Virus record (IMG/VR): IMGVR_UViG_3300013285_000083
Span: 1 to 23,031 of that record
Source: a virus
Strand: one strand, 5' to 3'
DNA length: 23,031 nucleotides
The notes beneath the pieces are model-generated. The model ran no database searches. It was not told the DNA's origin and worked only from the letters and a program-made list of their open reading frames with translations. Made by a program: the position numbers and the translations under genes. Shown here in pieces: positions 4,449 to 22,723 of this stretch. Positions within the stretch are counted from its first letter, which is position 1. Each line of letters opens with the position of its first letter.

Positions 4449-5177
4449 TTAACGCTTTGCGCGTCCAACTGCTGGCATCGGCTCTTCTGGCTCTTCTGCG
4501 GGCATTTCTTCAGCACCCATTTCAGATCCCATTTCTTCAGCACCCATTTCAGATCCCATTTCTTCAGCACCCATTTCAGATCCCATTTCAGCACCATCCA
4601 TTTCGCCGCCCATCTCATCACCACCGAATGCTGCGCCGCCCTGACCAGTAATAACGCCCAATGCGCCTAGTAGTCCGGTTTTAGATTGAGCAATAGCTGC
4701 TTGCAATGAAGTCAATGCTTCTGATACTTGGCTACTAAACTGTTCACCTTCACTTGAACCAAACTCGCTGTTGACACCGTCAACTACTGCAGGTAGCTCT
4801 TTGACTAGCATGTCAGAAACTTGCTCAACCATCTTCTGCATTGTATCAACCATCTCTTGTGCAGCTAAAACGACTTGTGATTTCTCAACTTCTTCGTTCT
4901 CAACTACGATGCGAGTATTGTACAACGGGGTAGTTTTTAGATCACCGTAGTGATGGCTAAGTGCTTGTTCCATGAACACCAGTTTCAAGTAAGCAGGATT
5001 TTGCTCCCCACTCATTGATCTACCTTTAGTCTCGGCTATTAAGCCTTTAACTTTGATAAGCATTTTTTTAGTCTCATATAGACCTAATTTATCAACATTA
5101 AATGTTGTATTGAAATGCTCTTTTAGGGCTCTGACAGCGACTGTCGTTTTTTTGTTGTTGAATTCGTTAAGTTTCAT
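4449..5177 (-). CDS. Late protein with acidic Met-rich C-terminal repeats
   Basis: I chose ATG 5177 (MKLNEFNNKK) over the longer open frame because AGGAA sits 6 bases upstream and a GATAAATA late box 25 bases upstream. The 242-residue product has a basic N-terminal part, a helical central region (about residues 25-180, with QEMVDTMQKMVEQVSDMLV likely a coiled coil), a Gly-Gln-Gly linker, and a C-terminal tail of acidic repeats built on EEMGSEMGA, repeated three times exactly. Function not recognised. Acidic helical late proteins of this size occur among T4-type prohead core components, and the N-terminus followed by R-A-L-K-E could be a prohead-protease-type site (L-x-E), but this is inference. 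It is followed 2 bases later by the gene at 4126-4446. Confidence 0.6.
   Translation of the reverse strand: MKLNEFNNKKTTVAVRALKEHFNTTFNVDKLGLYETKKMLIKVKGLIAETKGRSMSGEQNPAYLKLVFMEQALSHHYGDLKTTPLYNTRIVVENEEVEKSQVVLAAQEMVDTMQKMVEQVSDMLVKELPAVVDGVNSEFGSSEGEQFSSQVSEALTSLQAAIAQSKTGLLGALGVITGQGGAAFGGDEMGGEMDGAEMGSEMGAEEMGSEMGAEEMGSEMGAEEMPAEEPEEPMPAVGRAKR
4507..4587. repeat. Three perfect 27-bp tandem repeats inside a gene
   Basis: Three adjacent 27-base copies (4507-4533, 4534-4560, 4561-4587) encode a nine-residue unit on the minus strand, M-G-S-E-M-G-A-E-E. They keep frame, so slippage would change the tail length without breaking the gene. No spacers, so not CRISPR. Confidence 0.92.
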
Positions 5178-5202
5178 AGTTGTTCCTAGATTACTAATAA
5201 AG

Positions 5203-5210
5203 TATTTATC
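5203..5210 (-). promoter_or_regulatory. T4-type late promoter box (GATAAATA)
   Basis: GATAAATA on the minus strand, 25 bases upstream of ATG 5177 with an AGGAA ribosome site between. It lies just beyond the 3' end of the upstream gene (stop at 5221). Confidence 0.6.
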
Positions 5211-5220
5211 ATTTTCTAAT

Positions 5221-5706
5221 TTATTTTGCGGAGTTCTGAGCAAATTGCTTGTACTGCCATTCCTTGCAGCGCTCCGTGTACCGAGCTAATTCGGCTGATG
5301 CAGATTGTCTTTTTACTCTACCCTCAGTTAATTTGGTTGTATATAATGCTAGTTGATCGTAATCTTTAGTTCTCTTGCACAAATTTTCGTGCACCTTCAT
5401 GTTTTGAATAATACCAGAGAGTAATTGATCTAGGTACAATACTCGTGCTGCACCGTTTATATTACCGCACAAATCAAGCGTGGCCCAAGTCACTGCTATT
5501 TTTAGATCAGTAAAGGCATGTGAAGTAAACGTATGCTTCTTTTCCACTACGAACTCTAGTACATCCTTCGATATAAGGTACGTACCGAATAAGTTATAGT
5601 TTCCGTCACTGTCTTGAAAAATTATCTGTTTCTCTAACGCTGATAACTTCTCTTTACCGAGAAGTTTGTTAAGGATATCAAACATTTTAGGTTCAGTTAG
5701 TTTCAT
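5221..5706 (-). CDS. Conserved phage protein of unknown function
   Basis: The start taken is ATG 5706 (MKLTEPKMFDILNKLLG), 161 residues, because a GAGGT ribosome site lies 8 bases upstream and the longer frame would run far into the preceding gene. With this start it overlaps the upstream gene by 14 bases. The protein is mainly helical from its composition; the middle part (FGTYLISKDVLEFVVEKK, then LKIAVTWATLDLCGNINGAA) looks like a compact alpha-beta domain and the end (about residues 105-161) a charged helical pair. I do not recognise the family. It is in a late-type unit with the gene at 5693-6148. Low homology information limits any functional claim. Confidence 0.6.
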   Translation of the reverse strand: MKLTEPKMFDILNKLLGKEKLSALEKQIIFQDSDGNYNLFGTYLISKDVLEFVVEKKHTFTSHAFTDLKIAVTWATLDLCGNINGAARVLYLDQLLSGIIQNMKVHENLCKRTKDYDQLALYTTKLTEGRVKRQSASAELARYTERCKEWQYKQFAQNSAK

Positions 5707-12336: not shown

Positions 12337-12717
12337 ATGATTCCAACCGAATTCTTCAACAAACTAACACAAAACCACCCGTTTATCACCATCTGCTCCT
12401 ACGCAGGTCAGGACTACGTTGGAATTGTACAAAATAGGGATGATATTGTAACTACGATATATGATTACGGTGCCATAGTCGATCAAATACTACGTGATCG
12501 GTTCTTAGAACTAGGTGATGTATGGTGGTGGGAGTCGAACAGACTAGTACCAATCAATATGTTCTTAAAAGACGATTGGTCTATGTTTAGACCATATTTA
12601 CGAACGTTCAATAACAAGAGTCTTACTGTGGTTCACGGGCCAATATGCAGTATGCTAGAGTTAGCAAAGCGCAAGAGTAAGCGCAAATCAATCACTCTCG
12701 TCAAGCGTCTTAGCTGA
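12337..12717 (+). CDS. Conserved phage protein of unknown function
   Basis: A 126-residue protein on the plus strand, against the direction of its neighbours. It begins MIPTEFFNKLTQNHPFITIC, has VGIVQNRDDIVTTIYDYG (a small beta domain resembling an SH3-like fold), then GDVWWWESNRLVPINMFL and ends in a very basic tail (LAKRKSKRKSITLVKR). I remember similar short proteins in T4-like marine phages but no function. The basic tail may bind nucleic acid. A GATAAATA late box is 20 bases upstream; no clear Shine-Dalgarno is seen before ATG. Its 3' end overlaps the convergent DnaE-like gene by 30 bases and no terminator lies between them. Confidence 0.7.
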   Translation: MIPTEFFNKLTQNHPFITICSYAGQDYVGIVQNRDDIVTTIYDYGAIVDQILRDRFLELGDVWWWESNRLVPINMFLKDDWSMFRPYLRTFNNKSLTVVHGPICSMLELAKRKSKRKSITLVKRLS

Positions 12718-13281
12718 TTCCTCTAATAAGTTCATATGAACTGCAACTAGGTGTGAATAGGAAATACTATGCGACTTCTTGAATGTGTACCCGGTATCAT
12801 CTTTATCCCACACTGTTTTAGCAACTTCTTTCCAAGGTAATCCAATCAAATGCTTCTTAGAGGGGCGAATGACAGCTAGAAACATCGCTAGTCTGGGAAT
12901 GCTATCAATAGGCTCTGGCATCTTCTGCATACTATTATAATGATTCGCCAAGTGAATGAGTTTTTCTACAAACACTATATCATTCAATTTCTTCCAATCA
13001 GGTTCAGCCATCAAACTGATTAAATGTTGCTCATCACGGATCTTATCATACACATGAACATTCAAAAAGTCTAATTTGATATAGCCACGCTTCTCTGCGA
13101 CTGTGTAGTCGAGATTGGCCATTACGTTGATAGCATCAAGTGGCACATCAGTGACATATATACCAGTAGAGTGTTTGCGAATAGGATTTACCTTACGCAT
13201 CGCTGCCGGAATGTGTTTTATGTGTTGTAAGATATTGTCTCTGTTGCCAAAGTCAATATCAATGTCTGAGTTAAATCTCAT
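12688..13281 (-). CDS. Miniature DnaE-like protein (Pol III alpha palm/fingers)
   Basis: This 197-residue protein reads like a condensed C-family polymerase core. SDIDIDFGNRDNILQHI (5-21) matches DnaE PDFDVDFCMEKRDQVI, so D8 and D10 align with E. coli catalytic D401 and D403. KHSTGIYVTDVP (36-47) matches the region where DnaE has a conserved His-Ala-Gly strand. GYIKLDFLNV (66-75) matches VKFDFLGL, D71 aligning with D555. LAVIRP (135-140) matches ALYRPGP and FKKSHSISY (167-175) matches the FNKSHSAAYA motif of the fingers. DnaE itself is over 1000 residues, so the PHP, thumb and beta-binding parts are missing. It overlaps the upstream exonuclease gene by ATGA. Polymerase activity is uncertain; it may be a clamp- or DNA-binding remnant. 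Confidence 0.7.
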   Translation of the reverse strand: MRFNSDIDIDFGNRDNILQHIKHIPAAMRKVNPIRKHSTGIYVTDVPLDAINVMANLDYTVAEKRGYIKLDFLNVHVYDKIRDEQHLISLMAEPDWKKLNDIVFVEKLIHLANHYNSMQKMPEPIDSIPRLAMFLAVIRPSKKHLIGLPWKEVAKTVWDKDDTGYTFKKSHSISYSHLVAVHMNLLEESAKTLDESD

Positions 13282-13826
13282 TTAGATTGCACTAGTCCCG
13301 CTTTAATTAATTTCAAGTAACCCTTCTGTAGTATTATAGCTTGGCGTTCAGCGTCTTCAACAGCTTTGTGGGTTGTTTTATAACTACCGTCTTTCAAACT
13401 TACATTGGTGACTTCATAGATAGTTCTAGTGTCTCTGACTTTCCAGAACTGCCATGGTGCAAGTTGACCAAGTTGTCGCCATGCATGTTCCATAACTACA
13501 ACGTCAAACGATGCACCATTACTCCACACGTTATTGTGATTCCAACAAAACTTATAAAGCGTATCCATAGCATCAGCAAAACTAACTCTGCCTTGATCAC
13601 CCATAGCTTCTTCAATAGCTGCAGGGTTTTGAGTACTCCACCAACGCAATGTATCTTCATTGATGCTACGATCATAGATTTCAGTTTGATCTTCAATCGT
13701 AGGTCTAATTTCAATTTTGTCAATGATACCCTGACCACGCGGGTCAAACAACACTGCACCAATCGTAAGAATCACACAATCTGGTGTTGTATCTAAACTC
13801 TCAATATCTATCATTATGTCGGACAC
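13278..13826 (-). CDS. DEDDh 3'-5' exonuclease, DexA-like
   Basis: I start this at GTG 13826 because AGGAG lies 6 bases upstream; a frame from ATG 13853 would have that site inside the gene. The 182-residue product has the DEDDh set: D7 and E9 in MIDIESL, D108 in NGASFDVVVM, H153 and D158 in THKAVEDAE. NEDTLRWWSTQNPAA (56-70) and FWKVRDTRT (127-135) match T4 DexA (STIEWWKNQSPEA, FWNQRDIRT). DexA-type enzymes remove single-stranded 3' ends. The ATGA overlap with the mini-DnaE gene means the two are translated together, which suggests a joint role, much as a polymerase and a proofreading subunit. No convincing minus-strand promoter is visible upstream, where the homing endonuclease gene lies. 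Confidence 0.88.
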   Translation of the reverse strand: MSDIMIDIESLDTTPDCVILTIGAVLFDPRGQGIIDKIEIRPTIEDQTEIYDRSINEDTLRWWSTQNPAAIEEAMGDQGRVSFADAMDTLYKFCWNHNNVWSNGASFDVVVMEHAWRQLGQLAPWQFWKVRDTRTIYEVTNVSLKDGSYKTTHKAVEDAERQAIILQKGYLKLIKAGLVQSK

Positions 13827-13842
13827 TTTTTTCTCCTGTAAG

Positions 13843-13850
13843 TATAAATA
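13843..13850 (+). promoter_or_regulatory. T4-type late promoter box (TATAAATA)
   Basis: Exact TATAAATA on the plus strand, 20 bases before the homing endonuclease start; AAGGAG follows at 13859-13864, six bases before ATG 13871. Confidence 0.55.
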
Positions 13851-13870
13851 CATGTATCAAGGAGATAATC

Positions 13871-14656
13871 ATGTATTTGCAAAATAAATATTCTAGATGG
13901 TATTATAACATAATAAATTCAGCAAGAGCAAGAGTTTTGGTAAGTAACACTTATTATGAAAAACATCATATTATTCCCAAAAGTTTGGGCGGAACAGCCA
14001 ATAGTGAAAATTTAGTTAAACTTACTGCAAAGGAACATTTTATATGTCACTTGTTATTACCTAAGATTACAACCGGCAATAACAAACATAAAATGATACA
14101 TGCATTTTGGTTTATGTCTAATCCTAAAAAATTAGGACTCAGGTACAAGCCCTCTTCAAAGATTTATGAACTTGCAAAATTAGAAAAATCAAAATTACTC
14201 AAGTCTATTCGAGGCAAAGATCATCCAAATTTTGGAAAAAAACACCCCGAACGGACCAGTGATATTTTTACTGACCAGTGGAGAGCTAGCATATCTGAAT
14301 CTAAAAAAGGTAAGGTAGCTTGGAATAAAGGAATACCAAGAACTCAAGAAGTTAAAAATGCGGTCAGTATGGCCAACATTGGAAAAGTACCATGGAATAA
14401 AGGTGTCGCTCATAATTCAAGCACTATACAAAAAATAAAAGATGCTAACACGGGAAAACGATGGGTCCACAATGATACCGGAAATATTCTTTCTGTCAGT
14501 GAAAGTCAATTAGCTGGTCTATTATCTGAAGGATGGCGATTAGGGCAAGGTGCTAGAAAAATAATCAGTTACATCACATGTCAATATTGCGAAAAACAAA
14601 TAACTGCATCTTCGCATACCCGCTGGCACGGTGATAACTGTAAGAGAAAATCATAA
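13871..14656 (+). CDS. HNH homing endonuclease with NUMOD3-like repeats
   Basis: The 261-residue protein starts at ATG 13871 behind AAGGAG. Residues 29-60 form an HNH nuclease (YEKHHIIPKSLGG with H32-H33, N47, H56). Two NUMOD3-type DNA-binding units follow, GKVAWNKG (147-154) and GKVPWNKG (171-178), then a third basic stretch around GKRWVHND. The end has a zinc-finger layout: C237, C240, H253 and C257. Free-standing HNH genes of this type cut intron-less or invaded alleles and spread by repair. It is on the plus strand within a minus-strand block, is more A+T rich than its neighbours, and sits between the DexA-like gene and the end of the mini-gene array, as expected of a recent insertion. 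It has its own late-type promoter. Confidence 0.9.
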   Translation: MYLQNKYSRWYYNIINSARARVLVSNTYYEKHHIIPKSLGGTANSENLVKLTAKEHFICHLLLPKITTGNNKHKMIHAFWFMSNPKKLGLRYKPSSKIYELAKLEKSKLLKSIRGKDHPNFGKKHPERTSDIFTDQWRASISESKKGKVAWNKGIPRTQEVKNAVSMANIGKVPWNKGVAHNSSTIQKIKDANTGKRWVHNDTGNILSVSESQLAGLLSEGWRLGQGARKIISYITCQYCEKQITASSHTRWHGDNCKRKS

Positions 14657-14704
14657 TTATCCTTTTTTATTTTTAGTATAGGGTGAGTATACCCTAGGCA
14701 TACC

Positions 14705-14878
14705 TCACTTAGCACAGTAGCACGTTGCCTGTTGCACTACCCCCTTTGCCCAGCCCTCTTCCCATATTTCCCAATTAGTCCATAGATGCCAATTCAATCT
14801 ACACCTAAGTGATTGCACTGGCTCTAAGTCCTTGAGTACTCGCCAAGTGTTTATCTTCTCATGCTTTTCAAGTTTCAT
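14705..14878 (-). CDS. Small Trp/Cys-rich protein at the array end
   Basis: A 57-residue protein (MKLEKHEKINTWRVLKDLEP at the start) with RCRLNWHLWTNWEIWEEGW in the middle and CYCAK at the end. I recall short phage proteins with the same C-R-L-x-W-H-x-W-T-x-W-E block followed by a Cys-x-Cys knuckle, so this may be a small metal-binding protein cut short before its last cysteine pair. It does not share the L-R-W ending of the genes upstream. Its ATG overlaps the preceding stop as TAATG, so it is the last gene of that operon. No terminator with a T-run is seen after it. Confidence 0.6.
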   Translation of the reverse strand: MKLEKHEKINTWRVLKDLEPVQSLRCRLNWHLWTNWEIWEEGWAKGVVQQATCYCAK

Positions 14879-15162
14879 TATGTCTTCCACATTTCATACA
14901 TAAATTTTAACTTGGAATCCCATATCTCTATAGTGATATTTCCTCCGGTCAGCATAAAATCCCAACCATTGCCTCTATCACCAAAGTTTCTTCTGCACCA
15001 TTTTACAATTGTGCTAGGATCTTGGTTCTTTAGTCGGCAGTCGTATACATATGTTCTTTTATTAGCTCTATTGCCAGCAGATTTATCGGCAATTACAACC
15101 TCGTACTGTATTTGCTCAGTGAAAGGTCTGAACTGTCCTAGCGGTTGATTTTGTATTGCCAT
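14878..15162 (-). CDS. Array mini-gene, diverged L-R-W family member
   Basis: A 94-residue protein beginning MAIQNQPLGQ (ATG 15162, joined to the upstream stop as TAATG behind GAGGTGG). It has the family's central motif IVKWCRRNFGDRGNGW (about 54-69) but the C-terminal signature has decayed to KLKFMYEMWKT. The N-terminal 45 residues are an extra basic region (NRANKRTYVYDCR) not seen in the shorter members. Its own end codes E-M-W, without AGG, and the next gene lacks a good ribosome site. Function unknown; belongs to the tandem array 14878-17635. Confidence 0.7.
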   Translation of the reverse strand: MAIQNQPLGQFRPFTEQIQYEVVIADKSAGNRANKRTYVYDCRLKNQDPSTIVKWCRRNFGDRGNGWDFMLTGGNITIEIWDSKLKFMYEMWKT

Positions 15163-15365
15163 TATGACCACCTCAATATAAACATCATCAAATCTTTCTC
15201 AGAATCAAACTCTACTGTCATTCCAACCTGAGTAGTACCTAACTGAGTATCACACCAATCTTTGAGTTCTTCGTAATGTGTGTTCCAGTAATAGATATCA
15301 CATAGTATTACCATGTCTTTTGAGAATTCTAATTCATAGGGTACGATTATAAATCGCCGCTTCAT
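15162..15365 (-). CDS. Array mini-gene, L-R-W family
   Basis: ATG 15365 is preferred (TTAGG about 7 bases upstream and no overlap with the preceding stop at 15380); ATG 15389 would add 8 residues. The 67-residue product has a strand-rich N-terminus (MKRRFIIVPYELEF), the central motif ELKDWCDTQLG (about 33-43) and the end DSEKDLMMFILRWS. The ending SEKD-x-x-x-F-x-L-R-W is shared almost letter for letter with the gene at 17336-17488 (SEKDYAWFILRWH). Function unknown. Confidence 0.72.
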   Translation of the reverse strand: MKRRFIIVPYELEFSKDMVILCDIYYWNTHYEELKDWCDTQLGTTQVGMTVEFDSEKDLMMFILRWS

Positions 15366-15379
15366 ATCAAAGCCTAAAT

Positions 15380-15778
15380 CTAGCCCCATAGCAATAGCGC
15401 TATGGTTGCCCACTTCGCGTGTTTGATTCTAACTTTAATTGTTAGTCGATTGTCTGCTGCATTATTATCTCTAAGACCCCATTGCCAATCCCATCCTTGT
15501 TTGCCCACATTCTTCTCCAGCCAGGGCCTGTAATGATCATTTGGGTCTGCACTTTGCACAGAGGTCGTTGATCCGTCGGGCATCTCGTCTAGAATAACCC
15601 AACCTACCGGCCACTTGACCGTGAAGGTTACCCCGGGCATCCAGCGCCACCATGCAGCATCGTATAGATTACCTGCTCGTTTATGTATTTCCCATTGTGC
15701 CATTTGTATTTGCCAGTCTGTTATGCTATAGTTCTTTGCAATGGGCAGCGGAAACATTCTTGGTGGAACATGTCCCAT
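15380..15778 (-). CDS. Array mini-gene, long diverged member
   Basis: At 132 residues this is the longest of the array. It starts one base after the previous stop (MGHVPPRMFPLPIAKNY), has a Trp-rich first half (AWWRWMPGVTFTVKWPVGW) and then the family core: HYRPWLEKNVGKQGWDWQWG (about 84-103), a beta strand LTIKVRI and an ending HAKWATIALLLWG in which L-L-W replaces L-R-W. Loss of the Arg codon removes the AGG that serves as ribosome site for the next gene elsewhere in the array, and the next gene here starts later with its own weak site. The first half may be a fused second copy of the domain. Function unknown. Confidence 0.68.
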   Translation of the reverse strand: MGHVPPRMFPLPIAKNYSITDWQIQMAQWEIHKRAGNLYDAAWWRWMPGVTFTVKWPVGWVILDEMPDGSTTSVQSADPNDHYRPWLEKNVGKQGWDWQWGLRDNNAADNRLTIKVRIKHAKWATIALLLWG

Positions 15779-15779
15779 A

Positions 15780-16025
15780 TCATGATCCCCATCTTAACTG
15801 ACACATCATCGCATGTTTTGATTCTTTGAACCAAACATCCATGTATCTAGCCTCATGTTGTACTGAGTATGACTCGGGAATCCACTCCACTAACTCATCA
15901 ATCCAGTCTTTTATCTCGTTCCACTGACGGATACGCTCGGTCAAGTTTAGTAGACCCATATACACTATTGGGATGTGTACTTTGAAATTATGGTCATCGC
16001 TTACACCGTTTATTATTTTGCCCAC
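15780..16025 (-). CDS. Array mini-gene, L-R-W family (GTG start proposed)
   Basis: The frame is open back to 16082, but that would overlap the upstream gene by 70 bases and begin with TTG without a ribosome site. GTG 16025 gives 81 residues (MGKIINGVSDDHNFKVHIPI) and a 13-base overlap. The central motif is EIKDWIDELVEWIPES (about 38-53) and the end HAMMCQLRWGS. The upstream gene has M instead of R in its L-R-W, so the usual GAGGTGG site is changed to a form lacking AGG, which makes this the least certain start in the array. Function unknown. Confidence 0.6.
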   Translation of the reverse strand: MGKIINGVSDDHNFKVHIPIVYMGLLNLTERIRQWNEIKDWIDELVEWIPESYSVQHEARYMDVWFKESKHAMMCQLRWGS

Positions 16026-16276
16026 ATTAGTAAAAACATTGTTAGATAGCTTTCCTTTAGGAAGTATATATGACCCGGCCAAGCTGTTCTACTGATTTTC
16101 CAAGAATCGATTGGAAAGGTCTTCTGGCACCATTCTTGTATTGTATCAAGTTCTTTATTGTTATACAAGTCAATTGGGCGTTTGTAAGGTAGGATAACAC
16201 GGTGGAGCCCATAGTCAACTATCAATGCATCTTTGGGTACTTTGACTTTTGGTTTTTTTGGTTTAGGTTTCTTCAT
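16013..16276 (-). CDS. Array mini-gene with Lys-Pro N-terminus
   Basis: ATG 16276 overlaps the previous stop as ATGA and follows GAGATGG by a few bases. The 87-residue product starts with a striking basic run (MKKPKPKKPKVKVPK), then VILPYKRPIDLY, the central motif TIQEWCQKTF (about 46-55), ISRTAWPGHIYF and the ending LTMFLLMWAK, a diverged L-R-W (L-M-W). The Lys-Pro run is unique in the array and may bind nucleic acid or be a flexible extension. Function unknown. Confidence 0.7.
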   Translation of the reverse strand: MKKPKPKKPKVKVPKDALIVDYGLHRVILPYKRPIDLYNNKELDTIQEWCQKTFPIDSWKISRTAWPGHIYFLKESYLTMFLLMWAK

Positions 16277-16482
16277 GCCCATCTCAAAATAAACAGCATA
16301 TACATCTTTGGATCGTGCCACTTTACATTTAGACTAGTGTGCCTCTTGCATTTTCCAAATTCAGCATTGTACTTCCGTAGTTCGACTGCTGCTTCGGCAT
16401 CAGATTTTGTAGTGTCTAAGAACTTGTTAAAGTAGCATACTCCTGTTAGCCCCGGCCATTCATTGTATTGTTTCTTGATCAT
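16273..16482 (-). CDS. Array mini-gene, L-R-W family
   Basis: The 69-residue product starts at ATG 16482 (MIKKQYNEWPGLTG), joined to the previous stop as ATGA behind GAGGTGG. It ends HDPKMYMLFILRWA, a textbook copy of the family ending, but its central region (ELRKYNAEFGKC) lacks the Trp of the other members. The middle (TTKSDAEAAVELRKYNAEF) looks like a single helix. Function unknown. Confidence 0.72.
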   Translation of the reverse strand: MIKKQYNEWPGLTGVCYFNKFLDTTKSDAEAAVELRKYNAEFGKCKRHTSLNVKWHDPKMYMLFILRWA

Positions 16483-16661
16483 GCCCACCTCAACATAAAC
16501 ATCAACGCATCTCGCTCATCGCTGAAATGATAATTAATTTTAGTATGATCATAGGTATTGTATCCGTCCTGATGCATATCGTTAGTGATATAACTATGAC
16601 AATGTGCCTTGGCCCACTCTAAAGGTTCCCAAAAAGGATCGTACGGTATTGTAACTGTCAT
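16479..16661 (-). CDS. Array mini-gene, L-R-W family
   Basis: ATG 16661 (MTVTIPYDPFWEPLEW) is taken over an earlier in-frame start because it forms the same ATGA overlap with the preceding stop as its neighbours, behind GAGGTGG. The 60-residue product has the core PLEWAKAHC (about 13-21), a His-Asp-Tyr rich middle and the ending SDERDALMFMLRWA. It is close to a minimal version of the domain: one strand, one helix with Trp, and a final strand-helix with L-R-W. Function unknown. Confidence 0.74.
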   Translation of the reverse strand: MTVTIPYDPFWEPLEWAKAHCHSYITNDMHQDGYNTYDHTKINYHFSDERDALMFMLRWA

Positions 16662-16906
16662 GAACTCCACCTCAGGGCAAACCAAGTTGCCAACTTGGGA
16701 TCTTTGACTGTGAAAGTGGTCACATATTTGGGTGCCAAGTCACGAGGATCAAACGCTTCATGTCCTTGTGGATAAACACGCTCACGCCGATAGAACCAAG
16801 CATAATCATCGTCATCAACAAAGCCAGTTATATTGCCCTTGCCCACATGCGTGTTTAACCATTCGGTACAGCCTTCGGGCACACCTTGAGGAAACTCTAC
16901 TCTCAT
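16658..16906 (-). CDS. Array mini-gene, L-R-W family
   Basis: ATG 16906 (MRVEFPQGVPEGC) makes an ATGA overlap with the preceding stop. The 82-residue product has the core CTEWLNTHVGKGNITGF (about 13-29), an acidic-aromatic middle (DDDDYAWFYRRERVYP) and the ending DPKLATWFALRWSS. Two extra residues after L-R-W shift the next start codon by one codon, yet the ribosome-site spacing stays workable. Function unknown. Confidence 0.73.
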   Translation of the reverse strand: MRVEFPQGVPEGCTEWLNTHVGKGNITGFVDDDDYAWFYRRERVYPQGHEAFDPRDLAPKYVTTFTVKDPKLATWFALRWSS

Positions 16907-17139
16907 TCCCATCTCAATCTAAAGAACACTGCATCTTTTTCTTCTTTGAAGTAAATCTTAGTGTGCCCAAACGTGCAGGATATTGCCCAATTATTATCAC
17001 CCATTCCATCATAATAATAAACCCACCCACCTTGCCCTAAATTATGTTCGCACCACTTCATCATTTTATGTTGTAGATGATAGTGACCCCGACCGAGGCT
17101 GATAGTGAATATAGGTTCTTTAACACCCATATCGTGCAT
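16903..17139 (-). CDS. Array mini-gene, L-R-W family
   Basis: The 78-residue product (MHDMGVKEPIFTISLGRG from ATG 17139; ATG 17130 is an equally possible start) has the core MMKWCEHNLGQGGWVYYYDG (about 26-45), a strand NWAISCTFGHTKIYF and the ending KEEKDAVFFRLRWE. It is the clearest example of the pattern W-C-x-x-N-L-G followed by K-D-A-x-x-F-x-L-R-W. It overlaps the 3' end of the non-family gene upstream by 20 bases and has no good ribosome site of its own, as expected if only family members carry the motif-embedded site. Function unknown. Confidence 0.72.
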   Translation of the reverse strand: MHDMGVKEPIFTISLGRGHYHLQHKMMKWCEHNLGQGGWVYYYDGMGDNNWAISCTFGHTKIYFKEEKDAVFFRLRWE

Positions 17140-17335
17140 TCACTCGTGATAGAGTTTCTTTGGCAAAGTCTCCGGCCGGAGTATCTTTATACATTCTTGC
17201 AATGTCATCTAAGCTGGTCCACATCAGTTCATGTTCTTGTTGCTGTGTATATACTCTCTCGCGTAGGCTACTAGCATCTAATATGCTAGCAACACCTGCG
17301 ATGATTCGCGGTAATATTCGTGCAACGAATTCCAA
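17120..17335 (-). CDS. Small unknown protein interrupting the array
   Basis: The 71-residue product does not carry the family core or the L-R-W ending. It has a hydrophobic N-terminal half (VARILPRIIAGVASIL, which could be a short amphipathic or membrane helix) and a helical second half (SLDDIARMYKDTPAGDFAKE). The proposed start is TTG 17335, directly after the TGA of the previous gene, with GAGG about 9 bases upstream supplied by that gene's L-R-W codons. No ATG is available near. It is either an unrelated small gene that landed between two array members or a heavily diverged one. Confidence 0.55.
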   Translation of the reverse strand: MEFVARILPRIIAGVASILDASSLRERVYTQQQEHELMWTSLDDIARMYKDTPAGDFAKETLSRVNARYGC

Positions 17336-17488
17336 TCAATGCCACCTCAGTATGAACCAAGCATAATCTTTTTCGCTGTTAAAGTAAATAGTTTCGAATC
17401 CATTCGTATGCCAGCAACCGATAAGATTTTTCTGACACCAGTCGATGATATCTATCCATTTTGCACATCCATTATACTGCCAACTCAT
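17336..17488 (-). CDS. Array mini-gene, shortest intact L-R-W member
   Basis: Only 50 residues (MSWQYNGCAK to FILRWH). The core IIDWCQKNLIGCW (about 14-26) and the ending NSEKDYAWFILRWH follow each other with almost nothing between, so this member shows the minimum domain. ATG 17488 overlaps the stop before it as TAATG and follows GAGGTGG by 6 bases. It is too short for many gene finders. Function unknown. Confidence 0.72.
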   Translation of the reverse strand: MSWQYNGCAKWIDIIDWCQKNLIGCWHTNGFETIYFNSEKDYAWFILRWH

Positions 17489-17635
17489 TATGCCCACCTC
17501 AACAAAAACCATTCATGATTCGCTCTAACTTGAAATACATAGCCGCTGCTACTGCCCGAACTTAATAGAAACGGATCACAATCGTTCTTATACATCCAAT
17601 CAGTAATTTCTCGCCAGTCATCTGTTATAATACAT
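17488..17635 (-). pseudogene. Array mini-gene with a frameshift after its start
   Basis: A reading frame ending SSSGYVFQVRANHEWFLLRWA, with the core EITDWMYKND, clearly belongs to the L-R-W family but has no usable start. An ATG at 17635 is one base out of phase: removing the single T that follows it gives M-I-I-T-D-D-W-R-E and restores the frame. As it stands translation from that ATG stops after five codons. It could instead begin at the rare codon ATT 17631 or internally at ATG 17595 (35 residues). Its end still supplies the GAGGTGG site and TAATG junction for the next gene. Confidence 0.6.
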
Positions 17636-17662
17636 GTATGAAAACAGATTATGGATTAAATG

Positions 17663-18367
17663 TCAATAACCACCTGCACGGAGCAGTCCTTTAACCTGAG
17701 CAACAGCTTCGGGGTCACGTTTGAACTTGATTGCCCATTGTTCCGGATCGATATAATCGATGATCATTTTAACATGATCCGATGTCAGGGTGTCTAAAAA
17801 TTTAGTACCGCTGTCACTTTGATACAACATCCACGGGCTTATCTTACCTGTTGTCACTGCATAACATATCTTGTTTGCATTTCCGTATCGTAACAAATCA
17901 TGTGGCTGAATGCTTGCTTCTTTTGCTAATTTCATAGAATGCTCTATCCCACGATGAATCGCATCTAACGGATCCTCTTTGCGAAGGTAGTCCTTTAAGA
18001 AGGCAGTATAAACCGAATCACTATGCCAGTTATCCAGCTTAGTATTCTCTTTCAACAACCAATCAACAAATCGACTTACGTTGACTACATTCACATCACC
18101 GCAGTAATTGCCAAACTTTACAAAGGCAGTATAGTAAGCACTCTTAATGAATTCTTCATATGTTTTGTTTTTAGTTCGGCTCATGCTGTTCTTAGTATAG
18201 AACTGCAGCCAGCATTGGAATCCAAGTCGGTTACCCTTGATGTCCTTATTCATCCATCGTTGCTTTTGTTCACATAGATGGCTTAGTAGGGTTCTTTCTC
18301 TTACGAACTCACGATTACAAAACTCACAACTATGGTTTGGTTCAACCGTTACCGCTATCTTTTTCAT
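17663..18367 (-). CDS. Zinc-finger protein of T4-like phages, unknown function
   Basis: Starting at ATG 18367 (MKKIAVTVEPNHS) the product has 234 residues; ATG 18385 would add six. The N-terminus has a zinc finger (CEFCNREFVRERTLLSHLCE, about 14-33: two Cys, His, Cys). Then RLGFQCWLQFYTKN, KTYEEFIKSAYYTAFVKFGNYC and ISPWMLYQSDSG follow, blocks I recall from a conserved protein family of T4-like marine phages without known function. The finger and basic surface suggest DNA or RNA binding. It overlaps the gp62-like gene upstream by 26 bases and lies in the early unit that starts at 19438. The L-R-A-G-G-Y end does not match the array family. Confidence 0.75.
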   Translation of the reverse strand: MKKIAVTVEPNHSCEFCNREFVRERTLLSHLCEQKQRWMNKDIKGNRLGFQCWLQFYTKNSMSRTKNKTYEEFIKSAYYTAFVKFGNYCGDVNVVNVSRFVDWLLKENTKLDNWHSDSVYTAFLKDYLRKEDPLDAIHRGIEHSMKLAKEASIQPHDLLRYGNANKICYAVTTGKISPWMLYQSDSGTKFLDTLTSDHVKMIIDYIDPEQWAIKFKRDPEAVAQVKGLLRAGGY

Positions 18368-18938
18368 ATTGTTTAATTTCAGCATCTGTCACTAGTTCCG
18401 ATAATGTTTCAATATCTGTTTGCTTCAGATTAGGGTACTTACTTGCCAAGTATACCTTCTTCTTGTGCTTGATGACGAATTCTTCACTTATAGCACGTAC
18501 ATGAGCTTCACTTGATTTAGGATATATCTTTGTGAAATACTCGCGTACTTCTTTTTCTTTAGGAGTTTCTTTAAGCTGCGTTACTTTGCTAGATAGATGC
18601 GGTATCCATTGATGAAACTGCTTGCCGATGCCCGGACTCGCTGCACACAACATCTGCCACTGTAGCTTAGGATGCTTGCTAACATACTCATTGAACAAGT
18701 GAGTATTTGCATGATAGTTAGTACTCATCAGATAATAGCCTTGTAGATCACCGCTAGACTTGATAGCACTCATCCAATGTGTCATCATATAAGGAACAAA
18801 TTTACGCTGCTGCTCATCAGTCAACTTATCGATGTACGCATAGTCTTTCTTATCCAGTGCAGTTAATGCATTGAATAAGTCAAAGTCTATGTTTTCAAAC
18901 TTTTCTTCAGTGGGTACTGCCGCTTTTCTAGTTGCCAT
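18342..18938 (-). CDS. Clamp loader small subunit, gp62-like
   Basis: ATG 18938 (MATRKAAVPTEEKF, 198 residues) joins the preceding stop as TAATG. Pattern resemblance to gp62 of T4 and cyanophages: an N-terminal LFNALTALDKKDY helix, FVPYMMTHWMSAI, NYHANTHLFNEYVSKHP, then LQWQMLCAASPGIGKQFHQW (T4: [20 protein letters not shown]), and VREYFTKIYPKSSEAHVRAI (cyanophage: VKEYYNYSNEKAKQAL). gp62 with gp44 loads the sliding clamp gp45; the gp44 and gp45 genes are not in the window. A basic C-terminal extension of about 50 residues goes beyond the cyanophage form. The similarity is modest, so a search should confirm it. Confidence 0.6.
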   Translation of the reverse strand: MATRKAAVPTEEKFENIDFDLFNALTALDKKDYAYIDKLTDEQQRKFVPYMMTHWMSAIKSSGDLQGYYLMSTNYHANTHLFNEYVSKHPKLQWQMLCAASPGIGKQFHQWIPHLSSKVTQLKETPKEKEVREYFTKIYPKSSEAHVRAISEEFVIKHKKKVYLASKYPNLKQTDIETLSELVTDAEIKQYEKDSGNG

Positions 18939-19438
18939 TAGAAGCACTGTCCGTAATCAATAATTTCACAGTTGCGACTAATTTCTTTAACAAAGTAAAC
19001 ACATCGAGGTTTGACATCATCATCGATAGGTACACATAGAAATTGTCCATTCTTCAGCCGAGGTGCATACCAAGTCACATCGTGGTAGATATCAACAATC
19101 TCAATATCTTGGAAACTAGGTCTAAATGCAGTGAGTGGATTGAATTCAAATGCTTTGAAGCCTCGATCATTAATACTAGTAAGTGGTAATGTTTCTAAGT
19201 CTCCCATGTCAGGTTCACCGATCAGTATCTGCCAATCTACTGGCATCTTTATTGTCTTGTTACCGATCTTCAATACAAGTGCAGGGCTGTTAAAACTCTC
19301 CAGAAATATTAGAGGAATGTAATGATAGTCTACGTTCTGTGGGTTACTATTGTCTAAGATAGCAAAACGTAAATCATCTACTTCGTCGGGTAGAGTCTCA
19401 AGATTGTAAAATGAATTTTCTAATGTTAGTATCCGCAC
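18938..19438 (-). CDS. Conserved T4-like phage protein, unknown function
   Basis: The 166-residue protein starts at GTG 19438 (MRILTLENSFYNL) and contains the blocks DDLRFAILDNSNPQNVDYHY, MPVDWQILIGEPDMGDLETL, LTSINDRGFKAFEFNPL and CVYFVKEISRNCEIIDYG. I recall this protein well conserved in T4-like phages of aquatic bacteria, commonly beside replication genes, but no function. Composition suggests a mostly beta fold. It is the first gene of the early unit whose promoter (TTGACA-N17-TATAAT) ends about 23 bases before its start. Its stop overlaps the gp62-like start, so it may be a partner in clamp loading or late transcription. Confidence 0.75.
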   Translation of the reverse strand: MRILTLENSFYNLETLPDEVDDLRFAILDNSNPQNVDYHYIPLIFLESFNSPALVLKIGNKTIKMPVDWQILIGEPDMGDLETLPLTSINDRGFKAFEFNPLTAFRPSFQDIEIVDIYHDVTWYAPRLKNGQFLCVPIDDDVKPRCVYFVKEISRNCEIIDYGQCF

Positions 19439-22138: not shown

Positions 22139-22359
22139 TCATAATTCAACTCCGAAATGTTGTAGTATACCATTGGCACAATCACTGACAGCATCGTTAT
22201 AGGTTAGTTCATTTGTATCCGCAACCTCTTTGTCAAGCACTTGCCCTTTACAATGTTCATAACATTCTTTGACAATCAACTCGGCGAACTTTTCTTTGTC
22301 AAACAAGATTATTTCGCTGTTGTAGCCTGTTCTATCAGTTCTTTGATTCGTTCGTTCAT
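22139..22359 (-). pseudogene. Frameshifted copy of the small gene at 22511
   Basis: ATG 22359, after a GAGG ribosome site, reads MNERIKELIEQA, almost identical to the start of the gene at 22511-22723, but stops after 16 codons. A different frame then continues YNSEIILFDKEKFAELIVKEC to QHFGVEL, again like the paralogue (KFNKEKFAELIVREC, EHFGVEE). The break lies at about 22325. The likely original Glu-Gln-Ala-Gly-Tyr would be encoded with AGGC repeated twice, so loss of one 4-base copy explains it. It might instead be a real two-frame gene, or a sequence error. Confidence 0.65.
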
Positions 22360-22361
22360 TC

Positions 22362-22514
22362 TCACACCTCTTTCATCCAGATTGTATTTTGAATAGACTG
22401 TCCAGCATATCCACAACTACCTTTTTTGAAGAACACATATTCAAACAAAAAAGCCCGAGCCTTACCTCCAAACATAGCAGGTGGTAGGATTCGGTATACA
22501 AAATGGTTCATCAT
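22362..22514 (-). CDS. Small basic unknown protein
   Basis: A 50-residue reading frame (MMNHFVYRILPPAMFGGKAR to IWMKEV) starts at ATG 22514 as an ATGA overlap with the stop of the paralogue at 22511; the second ATG (22511) is also possible. The order FVYRILPPAMFGGKARAF, then FFKKGSCGYAGQS, looks like a compact basic protein. It ends two bases before the next ATG and its tail supplies a GAGG ribosome site. I do not recognise the family. The tight joins at both ends are the main support for it being real. Confidence 0.6.
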   Translation of the reverse strand: MMNHFVYRILPPAMFGGKARAFLFEYVFFKKGSCGYAGQSIQNTIWMKEV

Positions 22515-22723
22515 TCTTCAACTCCGAAATGTTCTAAAATCTCGCGACCGTCGATATATTGCGGTGAGTTATCTGCTAATCGAGCACATTCGCGCACAAT
22601 CAACTCGGCGAACTTTTCCTTATTAAACTTATAGTGTTTAACAATCTTGTGATTATAATCATCAAAAGTTTGGTAATCAAGTTCATTAGCCTGTTCGGCA
22701 AGTTCTTTAATTCGTTCGTTCAT
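22511..22723 (-). CDS. Small helical phage protein, intact paralogue
   Basis: A 70-residue protein with MNERIKELAEQAN, KFNKEKFAELIVRECARLAD and ILEHFGVEE. I recall short proteins of T4-like phages with the same M-N-x-x-I-x-E-L-A-E-Q-A start, K-F-A-E-L-I-V-x-E-C middle and H-F-G-V-E end, of unknown function. An AAGGA ribosome site lies 7 bases before ATG 22723. A second, frameshifted copy lies downstream at 22139-22359, separated by one small gene. Early expression is likely from the promoter at 22933. Confidence 0.75.
   Translation of the reverse strand: MNERIKELAEQANELDYQTFDDYNHKIVKHYKFNKEKFAELIVRECARLADNSPQYIDGREILEHFGVEE

Follow-up and report, generated by a model that had tools for sequence, protein, structure and literature searches.

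The array and its protein family

The 23,031-base IMG/VR contig IMGVR_UViG_3300013285_000083 (here called the window, meaning the whole stretch analyzed) comes from a T4-type jumbo phage: the UvsW-like helicase that it encodes shows 49-53% identity to the corresponding proteins of Sinorhizobium phage Phosso, Agrobacterium phage Atu_ph07, and Asteriusvirus-type phages. On the minus strand, UvsW is followed by the phrog_11279, phrog_11758, and phrog_11058 genes, three conserved genes with no assigned function, and then by the subject of this work, an array of 12 consecutive small genes (positions 14878-17655), eleven of which encode a domain of ~70 amino acids (aa). A DexA-like exonuclease, a polymerase fragment, a primase, and a helicase-like gene complete the order. 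Two genes here lack the domain, one between copies 1 and 3 and another after copy 11 (Table 1), and no separate promoter was evident ahead of the array. An earlier note, made from the letters of the window alone, had described twelve minus-strand genes with eleven copies of one tiny domain, most ending in F-x-L-R-W. This count was borne out, and the twelfth gene (17120-17335) is unrelated, as the note had implied.

In a multiple alignment of the eleven copies, identity to the first one is 16-34%. As a check proposed in the earlier note, hidden Markov models (HMMs) were built from 6 copies in six random trials and run on the 608 open reading frames (ORFs) of the window. The held-out copies outranked nearly all other window ORFs, mostly with E values of 1e-9 to 1e-1, and nonmembers usually scored E > 0.1. 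Most held-out copies were recovered in this way; those at 15380 and 14878 were missed when left out, and both were included by an iterated HMM together with orthologs. When the eleven-copy HMM was run on 80 phage loci fetched independently with UvsW (the relatives), as the earlier note had also suggested, 183 ORFs were matched (E < 1e-3), rising to 302 after iteration. For each of the eleven copies, tblastn detected matches in additional phage contigs (E < 1e-5), and an independent replicate set of 61 loci yielded 144 new family sequences and no minus-strand matches. The diverged ends LLMWAK, ALLLWG, and YEMWKT belong to real members, the last of them in a conserved subfamily (subfamily 7, copy 11) that is the last or near-last cassette in the relatives. 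The family profile opens with a beta strand, followed by helix 1 carrying W-(C/L/I)-x-x-N-x-G, a pair of strands (F-x-F), and a closing helix with D-A-x-x-F-x-L-R-W. By these alignments and profiles, the array is made up of eleven copies of one old, diverged paralogous family.

Structure models, on which the earlier note had staked its claim of a single domain, agree with one another. Copy 3 is predicted by AlphaFold to form a beta-alpha-beta-beta-alpha fold with a mean predicted local distance difference test score (pLDDT) of 85. The model of subfamily 7, made from its own alignment only, has the same element order at lower confidence, with a pLDDT of 61 for the whole model and about 70-75 through most of the domain, and both models match BFVD entries A0A6J5P0U4, A0A6J5TB89, and A0A6J5LU99. 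The same predicted fold occurs in uncharacterized BFVD proteins of uncultured Caudovirales phages (A0A6J5L980 and others; best template modeling scores about 0.6-0.77), which, going by the models, probably belong to the family; these entries are database records only, with no family or function assigned there. No relative was found in the PDB, by profile or by fold, and conserved cysteine pairs are absent from the family profile. PADLOC searches with single copies and 51 members gave a best isolated E value of 0.0095, for one member, and no consistent family. Neither blastn with the array nor tblastn with seven concatenated clade members found a match in 50,697 phage records; seven concatenated Phosso/Atu_ph07 members, compared with phage records, matched only Phosso and Atu_ph07 themselves. 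No relative turned up when bacterial genomes were scanned with one subfamily. Charge, which might have pointed to mimicry or binding of DNA, was set aside, the net charge per subfamily running from -8 to +7 with no trend.

The joint between successive genes

At the joints, the codons TTG-AGG-TGG, which encode L-R-W, lie a few nucleotides (nt) ahead of an ATG that shares nucleotides with the stop codon or adjoins it. The next start falls within -8 to +12 nt of the stop in 246 of the 264 nonredundant members, with ATGA as the commonest arrangement, and 126/143 members of the replicate set are coupled to the next start. The true starts are mostly overlapping ATGs, at or just inside the preceding stop, and several proteins are therefore shorter than the ORF lengths given in the earlier note. 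Copy 0 has no ATG, GTG, or TTG before its conserved part and is probably 5′-truncated; its ortholog in locus L213 (68% identity) has a longer N-terminus.

Codon usage at the joint departs from that of the same genes elsewhere: R in L-R-W is encoded by AGG in 45% of cases compared with 7% in the gene bodies, and L by TTG in 61% compared with 21%. As a control for a Shine-Dalgarno (SD) sequence, the last ten codons were recoded synonymously, and pairing with the tail of the 16S rRNA was predicted. Members with L-R-W pair at -5.5 kcal/mol, and recoding weakens this to -2.4, whereas members without it show no excess (-2.5 against -2.2 when recoded). Pairing in the replicate set is -6.3 kcal/mol, compared with -2.0 at random positions and -2.7 at other phage ORF starts, and several joints in the window pair at -8.8 to -10.1, more strongly than the replication-gene starts checked. 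The recoding control documents, at the level of sequence, synonymous selection for predicted SD pairing at L-R-W joints. As judged from codon choice and modeled pairing, F-x-L-R-W serves in part as a signal in the mRNA, namely the SD site of the next overlapping gene. The earlier note missed this role, which is the strongest part of the pattern.

A purely protein motif, forming the core of a C-terminal helix or a docking peptide and resembling an SD by coincidence, would fit the members in Phosso that keep F, L, and W without SD codons or overlapping starts, as well as the core-like W and F in the copy 3 model. Speaking against it are the strong synonymous preference for TTG at L and for AGG/AGA at R and, in L-R-W members only, pairing above the recoded controls; we consider this explanation quite improbable. 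Because coupling and AGG codons are much rarer in Phosso, F, L, and W look like residues kept by protein constraint, and R with its codon looks to be under a further constraint, at the mRNA level, in the freshwater clade.

Table 1. Genes of the array unit and one example of a joint. ΔG, predicted SD pairing in kcal/mol; L followed by a number is a handle for a phage locus.
Feature	Positions	Strand	Length (aa)	Description
Copy 0	17488-17655	-		DWREITDWMYKN inside; end HEWFLLRWA; last codons contain the SD of copy 1
Copy 1	17336-17488	-	50	IDWCQKNL core; end KDYAWFILRWH; ATG overlaps the copy 0 TAA; SD ΔG -10.1
Interposed gene	17120-17335	-	71	TTG start; unrelated, without the domain
Copy 3	16903-17130	-	75	MKWCEHNLGQGGW; end KDAVFFRLRWE; structure modeled (see text)
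Copy 4	16658-16906	-	82	Ends KDPKLATWFALRWSS; orthologs 72-74% identical in L034, L035, L041
Copy 5	16479-16661	-	60	MTVTIPYDPFWEPLEWAK; end RDALMFMLRWA; SD ΔG -10.1
Copy 6	16273-16482	-	69	Ends KWHDPKMYMLFILRWA; SD ΔG -8.8
Copy 7	16013-16276	-	87	IQEWCQKTF core; end YLTMFLLMWAK; L260 ortholog 82% identical
Copy 8	15780-16025	-	81	Putative GTG start; end AMMCQLRWGS; no family match between the copy 7 and copy 9 orthologs in L260
Copy 9	15380-15778	-	132	ADPNDHYRPWLEKNVG; end ALLLWG; joined to the family via orthologs in L041, L213, L260
Copy 10	15162-15389	-	75	LKDWCDTQLG core; end KDLMMFILRWS; L260 ortholog 74% identical
Copy 11	14878-15162	-	94	IVKWCRRNFG core; end MYEMWKT; subfamily 7; SD ΔG -10.1
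Final small gene of the unit	14705-14878	-		Without the domain; start on the copy 11 stop; conserved in L034, L035, L027, L193
Joint example	15159-15180	-		TATATTGAGGTGGTCATAATGG, read as ILRWS and stop, and as SD and ATG of the next gene

Distribution, turnover, and selection

The joint pattern TTYNNNTTGAGGTGGNNATGA (21 nt) was scanned over IMG/VR with no protein model, and 117 stretches were fetched among the matches listed. Of 184 joint-pattern matches listed, at least 167 coincide with the end of a family ORF, 125 with E < 1e-3 and 42 with weaker scores. Among the same listed matches, at least 67 fetched stretches contain three or more members, up to 18, and many lack the neighbor genes of the window. 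A 344-kb contig has arrays at several sites. In profile searches of whole records, ~41 dispersed copies were found in Phosso and 4 in Atu_ph07, and none were found in T4, S-PM2, HTVC008M, phiM9, or Cr30. One Phosso gene (L088:23927-24304; Phosso 113923-114303) fuses a C-terminal segment of the Gp23 major head protein (Pfam, 9e-6; PHROG, 5.6e-6) to the mini-domain. The phrog_138 major-head-protein match of one Phosso member is due to this kind of fused gp23 C-terminal fragment preceding the mini-domain, not to the mini-domain itself.

At 45% identity, the members fall into 52 subfamilies. Arrays hold a common subfamily order (1-2/4-8-3-11-13-9-10-5-7), in which single genes are present or absent; in L036, L037, L041, and L044, subfamily 8 is represented by two adjoining diverged copies, apparently an older tandem duplication. 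Where a locus with the order A-C-B could be compared with a close relative with A-B, the inferred breakpoint lay within -15 to +4 nt of the stop in 10/10 resolvable cases of single-cassette gain or loss. The mean Jaccard overlap of arrays is 0.81 at UvsW identities above 98% and falls to 0.28 at 75-80%. The window has one subfamily of eleven in common with L005/L006 at 94% UvsW identity, the L005/L006 arrays reaching the contig ends. Comparison of loci documents both breakpoints at joints and fast turnover. An old, continuing amplification, as proposed in the earlier note, agrees with the diverged paralogous family and the single-gene gain and loss between relatives.

The surroundings of the array could suggest that its products assist the replisome of the phage or its recombination machinery as accessory factors: it lies between the UvsW-side genes and the exonuclease, polymerase fragment, primase, and helicase; its first cassette overlaps the upstream gene in several relatives; and the exonuclease closely trails the last cassette in relatives. 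However, arrays also occur where the fetched stretch shows none of these neighbors, copies are scattered in Phosso, and array content changes while the replication genes remain conserved, which makes a replisome role unlikely.

Within subfamilies, the median ratio of nonsynonymous to synonymous substitution rates (dN/dS) is 0.12-0.56, with almost no pair above 1; uvsW has a value of 0.04. On this measure, the members are real proteins under purifying selection, with looser constraint than a core enzyme. Nonfunctional or selfish small ORFs riding on a coupled operon, which the missing canonical start of copy 0 and the high turnover might suggest, are highly improbable given purifying selection in all testable subfamilies and a fold and order conserved across many phages. 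The same ratios lend no support to gene-wide positive selection, by which the arms race of the earlier note would keep the genes diverse. Arms-race proteins under continuing positive selection would fit the fast change of content, the small size, and the accessory, multicopy pattern. With turnover proceeding via cassette exchange and not via detectable gene-wide positive selection, this account is doubtful in the form given there, and an arms race may instead act through cassette exchange.

Several other features of the window were recorded. A NUMOD3/HNH homing endonuclease gene of opposite orientation (13784-14656, plus strand) is situated after the array and before the DexA-like exonuclease, whose 5′ end it overlaps. 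A 197-aa stretch at 12688-13281 (minus strand) matches DNA polymerase families of phages (phrog_11778, 4e-50), giving the impression of a polymerase gene divided into separate genes, and DnaE-like pieces sit at two sites in Phosso. Positions 22142-22306 and 22511-22723 (minus strand) hold a short paralogous gene pair with a common KFAELIV(K/R)EC...HFGVE and no Pfam match, and a protein with near-identical EMGAEEMGSEMGAEE repeats is encoded at 4449-5243 (minus strand).

A cassette model and its relation to known systems

We propose that the locus represents a mini-gene cassette array of jumbo phages, in which small genes are coupled, the L-R-W codons double as the SD of the next gene, and the joints tolerate insertion or loss; we put the probability of this reading at roughly two in three (0.66). 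Each cassette would encode one small beta-alpha-beta-beta-alpha protein that keeps its core residues (W of helix 1, the F-x-F strand, and D-A-x-x-F-x-L-x-W of helix 2) and lets the remainder diverge. Within the freshwater clade, TTG/TTA AGG/AGA TGG would serve both as the terminal L-R-W and as the putative SD of the following gene. Since the start overlaps or abuts the stop and an SD lies in the L-R-W codons, relay translation is possible, and the array mRNA may be translated gene by gene through termination-reinitiation. Because the cassettes mostly end in the same joint, insertion or loss there would leave the neighbors translatable, and the common joint could offer a short stretch of homology where recombination takes place. 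The products would most likely be accessory factors directed against host or competing functions, with a conserved core and a free surface. That they form an interchangeable set of host-takeover or counter-defense factors is plausible, at slightly below even odds. More tentative is a recombinase-free cassette platform in which one coding element would act as C-terminus, next ribosome-binding site, and exchange homology, so that sets of host-targeting mini-proteins are swapped without breaking expression.

Certain observations weigh against the cassette model. About one-third of the coupled members have neither L-R-W nor SD enrichment, and an SD is therefore not needed at every joint. Domain ends in Phosso are usually F-K-L-T-W or F-K-L-R-W, about half are uncoupled, and SD codons are rare, so that the protein motif is the older element and its dual coding at the joint a feature of the freshwater clade. 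Clean gene-end breakpoints are expected from recombination at joints and also from selection against broken genes, and we therefore only infer the recombination step. The profile search detected no copies in the T4-type jumbo phages RaK2, CBB, PBECO4, and XacN1. Searches of Pfam, PHROG, and NCBIfam with the same queries as for PADLOC gave scattered weak matches, none consistent, and homology places no constraint on function.

Through this analysis, hundreds of jumbo-phage genes that had been nameless acquire an identity. Phosso and Atu_ph07 are cultured relatives suited to testing the protein family, and TTYNNNTTGAGGTGGNNATGA is a DNA pattern by which such arrays can be found in metagenomes. 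A joint inside genes would allow a phage to maintain expression of a long set of accessory genes whose content changes. The array also advises caution, since peptide conservation where genes overlap may stem from an mRNA signal.

Precedents exist for coupled genes that overlap, for lineage-specific expansions within jumbo phages, and for cassettes that shuffle in T4-type phages. A limited search of open papers found neither the family nor an array whose joint unites protein end, ribosome site, and exchange point, consistent with the earlier note, to which no description of such an array was known. Integron gene cassettes are ordered, interchangeable small genes with a common joint. The likeness is one of analogy only: most array genes overlap and thus leave no intergenic site, an attC-like site being impossible in overlapping genes, and no integrase was recognized within the window.

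Promoter-stem-loop (PeSL) cassettes of T4-type phages, for which a shuffling of modules was proposed (Arbiol 2010 and Comeau 2014, as cited in PMC4503421), resemble the array, as far as they are described there, in having a short repeated sequence between small accessory genes. By that description they are promoter-terminator elements, whereas the repeated element of the array lies within coding sequence with no intergenic space. No PeSL-type early promoter and stem-loop terminator were found between modules: two terminator-like sites occur in 13200-19000, fewer than in shuffled sequence, and neither is at a joint. Bacillus phage G, with ~35 zinc-ribbon copies in a lineage-specific expansion of small proteins (PMC7824862), offers a similar large in-genome expansion of one tiny domain. 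The array family has no zinc ribbon, and the part of PMC7824862 that treats this expansion mentions neither coupled cassettes in tandem nor dual coding at a joint.

A parallel for the joint is termination-reinitiation, demonstrated experimentally for overlapping gene pairs with an intragenic SD (PMC6728339). Such pairs (ATGA/TAATG) share with the array a stop/start overlap and an SD within the end of the upstream gene; in the array, the overlap or near-overlap is found, and the intragenic SD is present in L-R-W members only. The pairs in that study are ordinary genes, whereas here one and the same joint recurs, up to about 18 times, within a single paralogous family, and the SD coincides with the conserved C-terminal tripeptide of that family.

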